Of a DNA stretch of 64,000 bases, positions 3,573 through 34,557 are shown piece by piece; the stretch's first letter is position 1; each line of letters opens with the position of its first letter. The notes beneath the pieces were generated by a model. The model saw nothing but the letters and a program-made list of their open reading frames with translations. It was not told where the DNA came from and ran no database searches. The translations under genes and the position numbers were made by a program. This DNA is from Gammaproteobacteria bacterium (GTDB lineage: Bacteria > Pseudomonadota > Gammaproteobacteria > Natronospirales > REEB76). Location of the stretch: positions 310,001-374,000 of the forward strand of contig DASVOS010000004.1 of the NCBI GenBank assembly GCA_036383255.1. The letters are read 5' to 3'.

Positions 3573-3598
3573 GCACGGCCGCAGCGATGCGGCCGTGC
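3573..3598 (+). terminator. Hairpin terminator after glnA
   Basis: Perfect 11-bp GC-rich stem (3573-3583 with 3588-3598) closed by a GCGA tetraloop of the GNRA type, 26 nt after the glnA stop codon. Only three T residues follow, so it may act as a weak intrinsic terminator or as an mRNA 3' end stabiliser. Confidence 0.7.
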
Positions 3599-3691
3599 CA
3601 TTTAAGAGGCGCAGCATAGAACCATCCCTGGCGGGCCGTGCGCCGCATGCGGCACACCCCTCGGGCGGCCGAGTGCTTTGGAGAAACGCTT

Positions 3692-11632: not shown

Positions 11633-12487
11633 ATGCTGAAGCCCCTGCTGCTCTCGGTCGCGCTGTTGCCCGTTGCGGCTTTCGCAGTCTCGCCTTGCAC
11701 TCCCGCGCAGTCCGAGTGTTCGGGTTACGCGGAGGTGAACGGCCTGCATATGTACTATGAGATCCACGGCCGCGGCCGGCCGCTGGTGCTGATCCACGGC
11801 GGCGGCTCCACCATCGGCACCAGCTTCGGCCGCGTGCTGCCCGCGCTGGCGAAGTCGCAGCAGGTGATCGCGCTGGAGATGCAGGCCCACGGCCACAGCG
11901 GCGACCGGGCCGCTCCCGAGAGCTTCCGGCAGGACGCGGACGACGCGGCGGAGCTGCTCAGGCAGCTCGGGATAGAGAAGGCGGACGTGCTCGGCTTCAG
12001 CAACGGCGGCCAGACCGCCCTCGAACTCGGCATCCGGCACCCCGAGCGGGTGCGCCGGCTGGTGGCGGCCTCGGCGTTCTACGCGCGGGACGGCGCGCCC
12101 GCCGCGTTCTGGGAGGGCATGTCCCACGCGCAATTTTCGGACATGCCGCAGGTCTATAAGGATGCTTACCTTAAGATAAACCCGGACCCGAAGGCGCTGC
12201 ACAACATGTTTCAGAAGGACGCGCAGCGCATGCAGGCCTTCCAGGGCTGGAAGGACGCGGAGATCCGCTCCATCCAGGCACCCACGCTGGTGGTGATCGG
12301 CGACCACGACCTGGTCCAGCCGGAGCACGCGGTGCAGATGTATCGTCTCCTGCCCCGCGGACGCCTCGCGATCCTGCCCGGCAGCCACGGCAGCTACCTG
12401 GGCGAGGCCATGTCGCCGGACCCTGACAGCAAGGTTCCGGAGCTGTTCGTGGCCATGGTGGACGAGTTCCTGGCCGCAGCCGACTGA
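11633..12487 (+). CDS. Secreted alpha/beta hydrolase
   Basis: Alpha/beta-hydrolase fold enzyme, 284 aa, with an N-terminal signal peptide (LLLSVALLPVAAFA), so it probably acts in the periplasm. Catalytic features: oxyanion region LVLIHGGGSTIG, nucleophile serine in LGFSNGGQTALELG, acid in VVIGDHDLVQPE and a histidine in LPGSHGSYLGE. The mature N-terminus has two cysteines (SPCTPAQSECSG) that could form a disulfide. An ester or lactone substrate is typical of the fold but cannot be specified. It sits between the second SRPBCC protein and the exporter. The ATG at 11633 was preferred to a GTG at 11621 because it begins the signal peptide. Confidence 0.85.
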   Translation: MLKPLLLSVALLPVAAFAVSPCTPAQSECSGYAEVNGLHMYYEIHGRGRPLVLIHGGGSTIGTSFGRVLPALAKSQQVIALEMQAHGHSGDRAAPESFRQDADDAAELLRQLGIEKADVLGFSNGGQTALELGIRHPERVRRLVAASAFYARDGAPAAFWEGMSHAQFSDMPQVYKDAYLKINPDPKALHNMFQKDAQRMQAFQGWKDAEIRSIQAPTLVVIGDHDLVQPEHAVQMYRLLPRGRLAILPGSHGSYLGEAMSPDPDSKVPELFVAMVDEFLAAAD

Positions 12488-31722: not shown

Positions 31723-32342
31723 GTGGGCCGCCTCAGGCGCGACTCGGCGCGCTTCACCCGCGCTGTGAGGCGCTCGGCGTCATCGCGCAGCCGGTCCACG
31801 CCGGCGAGGAAACCCTCCACCTCGTGGCGCGGCGGCAGCTCGCGGGACTCGTAGTGAAGGTAGTCGGCCACGTCCCGGCCGAGGCGGCTGCCCGCGTCGC
31901 GGCCCCAGCCGAGGAAACCGTGCACGGCGTTGCCCACCTGGCGCGCCGCCACGTCGCCGATGCGCCGTGCCAGGAGTTCCTCCCAGTCCAGGTCGGCGTT
32001 CTTCAGCAGGCGCGAGAACACCTGCGCCGTCTCCGCCTCGCCGCTGATGGTCATGCCCTTGGGGATCGCCTCGCCGTCGCGCTTCAGGGCCGCCGCGGCG
32101 AGGGAGGCGGCGGGCGCGCGCACCGTGATGTCCGCCGCGCCGTGGTAGTCCGCCGCCACGGTCATGCGGCCGCCCTGGGGCAGGAAGTGCAGCGTGAGCG
32201 GCAGGCCGATGAGTTCCAGGCGGATGACCTTGCCCTCGAGCTTCGCGAGGTCCGCGCGCGCCGCGCTGGAGCCCTGCAGCGAGGTCTCTAGCGCCTTCTC
32301 GACTCCCGCGGCAATCAGGTCGCCGAAGGGCAGCGCGCTCAC
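31719..32342 (-). CDS. ubiJ: Ubiquinone biosynthesis accessory factor UbiJ (SCP2 domain)
   Basis: Cytosolic lipid-binding accessory protein of the Ubi complex, 207 aa. The SCP2 sterol-carrier-like domain occupies about residues 18-120 ([43 protein letters not shown]), and a C-terminal coiled segment ([27 protein letters not shown]) is typical. It is thought to hold the hydrophobic ubiquinone intermediates. It is coupled to both ubiE and ubiB by 4-bp overlaps. Confidence 0.93.
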
Positions 32343-33097
32343 AGCTTGTGGCCCCGGTGCAGGGCGACGATTCCGCCCGAGAGGTTGAAGTAGTCGCAGC
32401 GCTCGAAGCCCGCGGACTGCATCATGCCCTTGAGCGTCTCCTGGTCCGGGTGCATGCGGATGGATTCGGCCAGGTAGCGGTAGCTCGCTTCATCCTTGGC
32501 CACGTACTTGCCGAGCTTCGGCAGTATGTTGAAGGAATAGCTGTCGTAGATCGGCTTAAGGCCGGGCGCCGTGGGATGCGAGAACTCCAGCACCAGCAGC
32601 CGGCCGCCGGGCTTCAGTACCCGGTACATGCTGGCGAGCGCCTCCTGCTTGCGGGTGACGTTGCGCAAGCCGAAGCCGATGGTGACGCAGTGGAAAGAGT
32701 TCGTCGCTAACGGCAGCTTCTCGGCATCGGCGATCGCGTACTGCACGTTGGACGATTCGCCCGCGTCCACCAGCTTGGCGCGGCCGTGGGCCAGCATGGC
32801 GGGGTTGATGTCCGTGAGCAGCACCGAGCCGCTCTCGCCCACCTGCCGAGCCATGCCGCGGGCCAGGTCGCCGCTGCCGCCGGCCACGTCCAGCGCCTGC
32901 TGGCCGGGTTTCAATCCCGTCTGACCCAAGGCGAAGCGCTTCCAGAGGCGGTGCACGCCGAACGACATGAGGTCGTTCATGAGGTCGTAGTTGTCCGCCA
33001 CCGACTCGAACACCCGGCGCACCCGCGCGGCTTTCTCGCCCACGGCGACGCGCTGGTAACCGAAATCGGTGGTGTTGTCGCCGGCGGGCTTGTTCAT
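32339..33097 (-). CDS. ubiE: Ubiquinone/menaquinone C-methyltransferase UbiE
   Basis: SAM-dependent C-methyltransferase, 252 aa, methylating the benzoquinone ring (or demethylmenaquinone). [27 protein letters not shown] and the SAM motif [15 protein letters not shown] are family signatures, as is [25 protein letters not shown]. It is the first of the ubiE-ubiJ-ubiB operon. The 233-bp gap upstream contains the ketosynthase remnant and hairpins that end the pigment cluster. Confidence 0.96.
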
Positions 33098-33174: not shown

Positions 33175-33213
33175 TTAAACCCGTTTGAAGATGAGACTGG
33201 TGTTTATCCCGCC
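33175..33213 (-). pseudogene. Remnant 3' end of a second FabF-type ketosynthase gene
   Basis: Read on the minus strand this encodes GGINTSLIFKRV followed by a TAA stop, the same 12 C-terminal residues as the intact ketosynthase ending at 33331. The DNA differs at several positions (for example ACCGGTG-type codon changes), so it is an older copy and not an assembly echo. Just upstream the frame runs into a 20-bp palindrome and loses any similarity. It is a vestige of a duplicated or replaced ketosynthase gene. Confidence 0.85.
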
Positions 33214-33214
33214 G

Positions 33215-33255
33215 GTTCGCCGCATGCGGCGAACGGGCAGGCAGGATGCCTGCCC
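33215..33255. terminator. Paired hairpins between the KS gene and ubiE
   Basis: A perfect 20-bp palindrome (33215-33234, GTTCGCCGCA and complement) abuts a second hairpin with a 9-bp stem, GGGCAGGCA/TGCCTGCCC (33235-33243 with 33247-33255), and a GGA loop. They lie 75-115 bp beyond the ketosynthase stop and probably end pigment-cluster transcription. The second resembles the stem at 16952-16984 in composition, so a dispersed hairpin family is possible. Confidence 0.55.
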
Positions 33256-33330
33256 CGTGCCGCGCACGTAGCAGGGCGAGAAACACTGTTTCGAGCAAGC
33301 GCGGAAGGCCGTCAGGCCCGGCTTCTTCTC

Positions 33331-34557
33331 TTACACGCGTTTGAAGATAAGGCTGGTATTAATTCCGCCAAACGCGAAGTTGTTGCTGATGATGCAGTCG
33401 GTCTCGAGCTTGCGCACGCCGCCCGTGATGTAGTCCAGCTCGGCGCAGGCCGGATCCAGCTCGTCCAGGTTCAGGGTGGGGGCGAACCAGCCCTCCAGCA
33501 TCATGCGGATGCTGAGCCAGGCCTCGAGGGAGCCGCAGGCGCCCAGGGTGTGGCCGAAGTGCCCCTTGAGGGAGCTGAAAGGCATCTTGCTGCCGAACAC
33601 CTGCTGCGTCGCCACCGACTCCGCGATGTCGCCGCGGTCGGTGGCGGTGCCGTGCGCGTTCACGTAGCCGACCGCGCCCGCCGGCAGGCCCGCGTCCTGC
33701 AGCGCCAGTTCCATGACCTTCGCCATGGTCTCGGCCTGGGGCTGGGTGATGTGCGCGCCGTCGCTGTTAGTGCCGAAGCCCACCACCTCGGCGTAGATCC
33801 TCGCGCCGCGCGCCTTGGCGCGGTCCAGGTCCTCGAGAACCACGCTCGCGGCGCCCTCGCCGATCACGAGGCCGTCGCGGTGCTTGTCGAAGGGGCGCGG
33901 CGCCGTGGCCGGCGCGTCGTTGCGGCGGCTCGCCGCGAACAGCGTGTCGAACACCGCGGTCGGGCCCATGCTGAGCTCCTCCGCGCCGCCGGCGATCATC
34001 ACGTCCTGCTGGCCGTGCTTGATCGCCTCGTAGGCGAAGCCGATGCCCTGGCTGCCGGAGGTGCAGGCGCTGGTGGAGGGGATGACGCGGCCGGTGATGC
34101 CGAAGAACAGGCCGATGTTCACCGCGCCCGTGTGGCTCATCATCTGCACGTAGGTGTTGGAGGTGAGTCCCCTGAGGCTCCTGTGCTCGCCCATGCGGCC
34201 GAAGGCCATGGTGGCCTCGGCGCCGCCGGCACAGGCGCCATAGGCGATGCCGGTTCGGCCGGATTTCAGGATGGGGTCGCCGATGAGCCCCGCCTGCTCG
34301 AGCGCGAGCTCGCTGGCGCGGGTGGACATCACCGCCACCGGCGCCATGCTGCGCAGGATCTTGCGGTCGTAGTGCGGCGGCAGCTGGTAGGGGGCGACCG
34401 GGGCCGCCAGCTTGCTGCCGAGGTCGTCGAGCTTGTCCCACTCCGCCATGCGCACCACGCCGGAGCGGCCCTCGCGCAACGCGCCGGAGATGGTCTCCCA
34501 GTCGTGGCCGAGCGCGGTGACGCCGCCGAAGCCGGTGATTACGACGCGGCGCGGCAC
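33331..34557 (-). CDS. apeR: Beta-ketoacyl-ACP synthase II-like (ApeR type) of the aryl polyene cluster
   Basis: Ketosynthase, 408 aa, extending the growing chain by decarboxylative condensation with malonyl-ACP. The catalytic triad is intact: C165 in STSACTSGSQ, one histidine in NAHGTATDRGD and the second in GHFGHTLGACGS; the C-terminus is FGGINTSLIFKRV. In the characterised E. coli system ApeR is the second KS, acting with ApeO/ApeC. It starts with GTG (overall MPRRVVITGFGG) and lies 89 bp after a small ACP gene. Its 3' end has a decayed twin at 33175-33213. Confidence 0.88.
   Translation of the reverse strand: MPRRVVITGFGGVTALGHDWETISGALREGRSGVVRMAEWDKLDDLGSKLAAPVAPYQLPPHYDRKILRSMAPVAVMSTRASELALEQAGLIGDPILKSGRTGIAYGACAGGAEATMAFGRMGEHRSLRGLTSNTYVQMMSHTGAVNIGLFFGITGRVIPSTSACTSGSQGIGFAYEAIKHGQQDVMIAGGAEELSMGPTAVFDTLFAASRRNDAPATAPRPFDKHRDGLVIGEGAASVVLEDLDRAKARGARIYAEVVGFGTNSDGAHITQPQAETMAKVMELALQDAGLPAGAVGYVNAHGTATDRGDIAESVATQQVFGSKMPFSSLKGHFGHTLGACGSLEAWLSIRMMLEGWFAPTLNLDELDPACAELDYITGGVRKLETDCIISNNFAFGGINTSLIFKRV

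Follow-up and report, generated by a model that had tools for sequence, protein, structure and literature searches.

The window analyzed here, a stretch of 64,000 nucleotides from a gammaproteobacterial assembly (GCA_036383255.1, contig DASVOS010000004.1), contains an intact ketosynthase (KS) gene and, beyond its stop codon, the end of a KS gene for a second time. The questions that this locus raises are where the supernumerary end came from and which of the two is the native one. A preliminary description took the arrangement for the scar of a tandem KS duplication, or of a KS replaced by recombination at a conserved 3′ end. The reading that we favor, and consider probable, is another: a mobile unit, in which a hairpin element follows a KS tail and a spacer, entered the KS gene, the tail carried by the unit now completes that gene, and the native tail lies stranded on the far side as a fossil.

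The second tail and an empty site

The two tails (Table 1) encode the same 12 residues and a stop codon. Read by codons on the minus strand, the tail in use is GGC GGA ATT AAT ACC AGC CTT ATC TTC AAA CGC GTG TAA, and the fossil is GGC GGG ATA AAC ACC AGT CTC ATC TTC AAA CGG GTT TAA. They differ at 7 of 39 nucleotides, and all 7 differences fall at codon position 3 (P = 4.6e-4 under equal positions), so the sequence bears out the preliminary claim of an exact C-terminal match with synonymous changes. The pair came up as the first direct-repeat family in the repeat search (39 nt, 82%, spacing of 156), and its alignment score of 43 compares with a maximum of 29 at other positions of the same stretch. 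When the stretch was searched against its own genome, the 39-nt tail turned up nowhere else, and the middle part, between the two tails, came back as many partial copies. The possibility that the 39-mer is a conserved noncoding element occurring without a KS gene does not agree with this pattern: the 39-mer is confined to KS, and it is the adjoining DNA that is dispersed.

Table 1. Features of the KS locus, and a second copy of the element, by position in the window.
Feature	Position	Strand	Evidence or remark
Intact FabF-type ketosynthase (KS), PRK09116 type, 408 aa	33331–34557	−	NF006587, 669 bits vs. cutoff of 470
KS tail in present use, GGINTSLIFKRV and stop	33331–33369	−	Probably arrived with the inserted unit, by analogy with G003/G010
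Fossil KS tail, GGINTSLIFKRV and stop	33175–33213	−	Probably the native 3′ end, displaced; the G003 equivalent is the native tail
ubiE, next gene downstream of KS (context only)	32339–33097	−	NF001240, 383 bits vs. cutoff of 378
DNA between the tails: spacer plus dispersed hairpin element	33214–33330	−	Left limit is a reading; the element may start at ~33322 if the upstream hairpins are included
Element core, match to covariance model R1	33214–33277	−	63.7 bits, E = 7.7e-11 in the window, as one of the 11 copies from which R1 was built; dispersed by plain BLAST too
Hairpin 1 of core, GGGCAGGC ATCCT GCCTGCCC	33235–33255	−	Loop motif conserved among copies
Hairpin 2, 20-bp palindrome GTTCGCCGCATGCGGCGAAC	33215–33234	−	CC after the palindrome abuts the fossil tail
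Second, weaker element copy	3597–3658	+	36.3 bits, E = 1.8e-5

Evidence on the order of the two tails comes from relatives of the window genome (which is designated G000). Genomes G003 and G010 are ~93% identical along KS and collinear downstream, and their alignment contains a single gap, of 110 bp, placed between G and CC. What G003 has gained there is a KS tail, a spacer, and an element core, with no loss of target sequence, and its fossil tail and all of the DNA beyond correspond to G010, where the empty site has no core. G008 has the same two-tail arrangement as G003, and in both the fossil runs into DNA that is the native downstream sequence in G010. Judged from these alignments, then, the fossil in G003 and G008 is the displaced native tail. 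Comparison of the tails with the gene bodies adds a further point. In the final 600 nt of the KS body, the distances among G003, G008, and G010 are much alike (41, 41, and 46 differences), whereas the 39-nt tails of G003 and G008 are separated by 3 differences, against 8 between either of them and the tail of G010; recoded tail positions are thus common to G003 and G008 despite the similar distances between the bodies. For the window, whose genome has no congener among those compared, the fossil is by analogy most likely the KS gene's own former 3′ end, displaced in the same way.

It is against this result that the older interpretation has to be weighed. A lost tandem KS, or replacement of the whole gene by a divergent allele, would leave one KS cut down to its last 12 codons, the hairpin repeat being later or coincidental. 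The fossil is in frame to its stop and has only third-position changes, as would be expected of a recently functional homologous end. However, the unit gained by G003 is 110 bp long and holds no KS remnant other than the tail, the empty site excludes such a history for G003 and G008, and none of the 12 relatives examined showed a tandem KS of this type at the locus, 10 of them also lacking a second KS tail. The same layout, moreover, recurs with the same element at dozens of unrelated genes, at tRNA genes, and at a 5S gene. We regard a tandem or replacement scar as very improbable; of the preliminary interpretation, the fossil tail and an insertion or recombination at a conserved 3′ end survive, and the tandem second KS does not. 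As a separate observation, G004 alone among the relatives examined has 2 KS genes of this type, each on its own contig (G004:C38:23589-24809 and G004:C125:52527-53741), with 71% and 66% identity to the KS of the window.

The hairpin element and the gene ends beside it

The palindrome and second hairpin that had been noticed beside the fossil are both there, and folding of the interval as single-stranded DNA beats 200 of 200 shuffles (z = −2.9). They are not mere neighbors of the fossil, as the preliminary description implied, but parts of an inserted element that is present at dozens of unrelated genes. Copies of the element have three hairpins in common; loops of the RTCCNT type cap the first and the second, and the stems are of widely different sequence. 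Stem covariation is 0.534, versus 0.156 after shuffling, and 91.4% of cells are paired, versus at most 44% for slid versions; these pair counts, taken from an alignment (A2) fitted to the model, lean towards structure. Right ends are mostly CTCACC, CTCGCC, CGAACC, or CGAGCC, and three longer copies (L006, L369, and L370) have an extra hairpin ahead of hairpin 1. In the loci searched against Rfam, no family reached its gathering score over the core. On the opposite strand of the cores (for example, window positions 33235–33255), the conserved loops become ANGGAT hexaloops closed by C-G, which resemble the hairpins bound by CsrA/RsmA. Some cores without gene-end duplication (L126 and L135 in G000; L073 and L074 in G003 and G008) have a second repeated motif, of the type TTTTGGCGCGCCAAAAGTAACCAAAA or TTTCTTTG..GCAAAGAAAGTCACCAAAGAAA, immediately upstream.

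The element is abundant in one family of bacteria and scarce outside it. Model R1 has 59 matches in G000 and 70, 54, 43, and 35 in G003, G008, G010, and G004, which belong to the same family; most family members have 10 to 70, and there are few elsewhere. Three genomes from another family of the order have 4 to 5 matches each, and under stricter filters a class-wide sample gave matches in 8 of 185 genomes. The phages, plasmids, and viral contigs searched yielded no convincing carrier, the sole plasmid match being a tandem hairpin array on a 508-kb replicon of Xanthomonas sacchari. This array (L382, NZ_CP010410.1, about 11730–12110) has a 228-bp repeat and the RTCC loop motif of the element; it adjoins a sugar transporter gene, and no duplicated gene tail is present there. 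A further locus, L376 (G159:C110:1-1500), consists of long nested repeats with the element's hairpin motifs, in which no gene end was recognized.

Many copies have on their left a gene whose end occurs a second time in the DNA on their right. In an anchored test, a duplicated gene end was detected at 50 of 105 cores, versus 3.5% when right flanks were swapped between loci; about half of the cores showed no duplication in this test. To the right of the element, the duplication starts at a CC. The distance from the start of the duplication to the core, which it precedes, is 37 to 53 nt in 35 of the 50 duplicated cases. In the window it is 93 nt, outside this main cluster, and would become ~47 nt on a reading in which the hairpins up to ~33322 count as part of the element.

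The range of genes involved is wide. Protein 3′ ends are duplicated at KS (in the window, G003, and G008), at L045, which from its C-terminus is presumably uppP-like, at L122 (ending in PSIETFAELMP and a stop), and at L124, L121, L151/L156, and L003. Among tRNA genes, the 3′ ends of Lys, Thr, Gly, Pro, Arg, Leu, and Glu are duplicated, starting 16 nt from the CCA end, and this constant position in the T-arm argues for some site preference; 5′ parts (the D-arm) of Gln, Ser, Thr, Met, Arg, and Trp are duplicated on the opposite strand. The end of a 5S rRNA gene, recognized by eye, is duplicated at L146, and at least one protein 5′ end, at L340. Some duplications are identical, such as one of 40 nt at L375, which extends beyond the tRNA into nongenic spacer, and one of 18 nt at L003. 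In tandem arrays at tRNA genes, gene ends outnumber cores by one. Another family of the class has an expanded array (L368, G037:C1:1015894-1016860), where seven tandem units of ~145 bp, each with a piece of the tRNA-Met 5′ part, lie upstream of tRNA-Met.

The synonymous character of the KS differences extends to other genes. Ten protein-end loci together show 63 differences between the end in use and the fossil, and 46 of these are at codon position 3 (P = 1.4e-10 on the assumption of equal positions). Both copies must then have been coding while they diverged, and the fossil is young relative to the split between them. Plain duplication of the target is alone no account of tails that had already diverged; units must either carry a gene end along with them or stem from a duplicating insertion that lineages exchanged at a later time. 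Two other sources of recoded tails were considered. A diversity-generating retroelement was set aside, the differences being at third positions and not adenine-specific. A self-targeting gene drive, with the fossil as guide and the recoded tail as escape, was set aside as well, because tRNA ends are duplicated unchanged and the two ends at L003 are identical.

Possible routes of insertion

The sequence of events that we propose for the window would run as follows. A small mobile unit, composed of KS tail, short spacer, and a dispersed hairpin element of about 65 to 110 nt, would have inserted into KS some 13 codons ahead of the stop, so that the gene now ends in the unit-borne tail and the native one lies beyond the element. 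A trans-acting factor may recognize the hairpins and join them, through the CC at hairpin 2's foot, to a CC of the target; a founding insertion would duplicate ~40 to 48 nt of target. Such a duplicate would regenerate the gene end, and an insertion within that distance of the end would be harmless; units of tail plus element could then pass between lineages and give rise to the diverged copies. The data directly show the anatomy and covarying structure of the element, the duplication statistics, and one clean empty site; that a dedicated factor moves the element, that events came in this order, and that units crossed lineages is what we infer from them. Since the duplicate would restore the end of whichever gene is hit, a wide target range would call for no special targeting, and since the unit brings a copy of the gene end that it enters, the gene would stay unbroken.

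The enzyme that moves the elements was not found among the families searched. The Y1 (RAYT) transposase (PF01797) has no match in G000, G004, or G008 and is present in some other relatives. TnpB (PF07282) was found neither in G000 nor in other copy-rich genomes. Cas1 (PF01867) is absent from G000, G003, G004, G005, G008, G010, G037, and G098, and the DEDD transposase of IS110/IS1111 (PF01548) from G000, G003, G004, and G010. Reverse transcriptase (PF00078) is absent from G003, G008, G010, and G037 and below threshold in G000, and so is not common to carriers. A dedicated integrase was rejected, the non-Xer integrases of G000 and G003 being unlike each other and having no core in the 12 to 14 kb fetched around them; in all, eight stretches fetched around extra integrases held no core. 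The best non-Xer integrases of these two genomes score below the cutoff of the integron-integrase model TIGR02249. XerC and XerD are present. The candidates that remain are an enzyme outside the families listed, XerC/XerD, or a replication-based route.

In favor of the second of these, tRNA T-arms and gene 3′ ends are classic targets of integrases, and phages and islands use tRNA 3′ ends and icd. Units might excise as small circles and integrate at homologous gene ends by means of a tyrosine recombinase, possibly the host's XerC/XerD, and this would agree with the way in which the gene end is restored by a diverged, element-borne copy. But the integrases just described do not resemble each other and have no core around them, no dif-like site has been demonstrated, and a single type of core stands at many target sequences, versus the single att site of an integrase. 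We consider site-specific recombination unlikely.

The third candidate is replication. By slippage or template switching, the new strand could leave the foot of hairpin 2 and re-anneal by its CC ~40 to 50 nt upstream, so that the gene end is copied twice. CC at the junctions, tandem arrays of identical units, and the failure to find a dedicated enzyme would all be in keeping with such a process. Slippage from a resident core predicts as many gene ends as cores, however, and the arrays have one gene end more; the empty site in G010 has no core from which to slip, and the arrival of the core at dozens of sites would be left unexplained. This route we rate as improbable, below site-specific recombination, and the insertion of a unit that brings the gene end with it remains the reading we prefer.

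Insertions normally avoid or destroy essential genes. Members of the family described here lie within protein, tRNA, and 5S gene ends at dozens of places without apparent loss, as would follow if every insertion makes good the end that it pushes aside. If true, this would be a further way for mobile DNA and genes to coexist, and it would give rise to recoded C-termini as well as to long leaders and trailers on tRNAs. It would also be a lead to an insertion machinery with an unusually long duplication, outside the transposase families tested.

Comparison with known systems

Several known systems share parts of this picture. Integrative elements, such as e14 at icd and islands at tRNA genes, bring a diverged gene end and leave the native end on the far side. 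Unlike these, the present unit is ~110 bp long and noncoding, has one type of core at many genes, and has no linked integrase that we could find. In integron attC sites, too, hairpins with a conserved structure but varying sequence stand in tandem arrays; the cores, however, end mostly in CTCACC, CTCGCC, or CGAACC, not in GTTRRRY, and no gene cassettes were seen.

REP sequences and REPINs of the GTAG and CGTC superfamilies are single short palindromes, abundant and mostly extragenic, and the CGTC type has also been reported without a dedicated transposase (PMC3733652; PMC2817692). The element is likewise short, palindromic, abundant, and mostly extragenic, but has three hairpins, a length of about 65 to 110 nt, and gene-end duplications. 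In PMC3733652, gene-end duplication does not figure, the string "duplicat" having no occurrence. A GTAG or CGTC tag on a single short palindrome is not what the three-hairpin core presents (left ends were judged by eye), and identity with the REP/RAYT system was rejected on the finding that several copy-rich genomes have no Y1 transposase. In the literature searched, with partial coverage, no description of gene-end duplication by such elements was found.

tRNA repeats that bear gene tails have long been known. In Escherichia coli, the 178-bp repeats of tyrT/tyrV (rttR/tpr) form three units that separate four tRNA-Tyr 3′ ends, each starting in the T-arm, and this arrangement of n units and n + 1 gene ends from the T-arm is common to E. 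coli tyrV and the element; four single-unit tRNA cases (L133, L139, L155, and L375) show the tyrT-type layout. The E. coli core is different and longer (178-bp period), with no RTCCNT hairpins by eye, and the tyrT repeats are known from one locus, versus dozens per genome for the element. More tentatively, and with a little less than even confidence, we suggest that the element represents a class of miniature elements that either make target duplications of ~40 to 48 nt or arrive as units already bearing a homologous gene end, that can thereby settle near the ends of protein, tRNA, and rRNA genes and keep them intact, and that have spread between species, with recoded gene ends and displaced native ends as their traces and tyrT as an isolated example. 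If so, the same mode of insertion might also account for the E. coli tyrT repeats.
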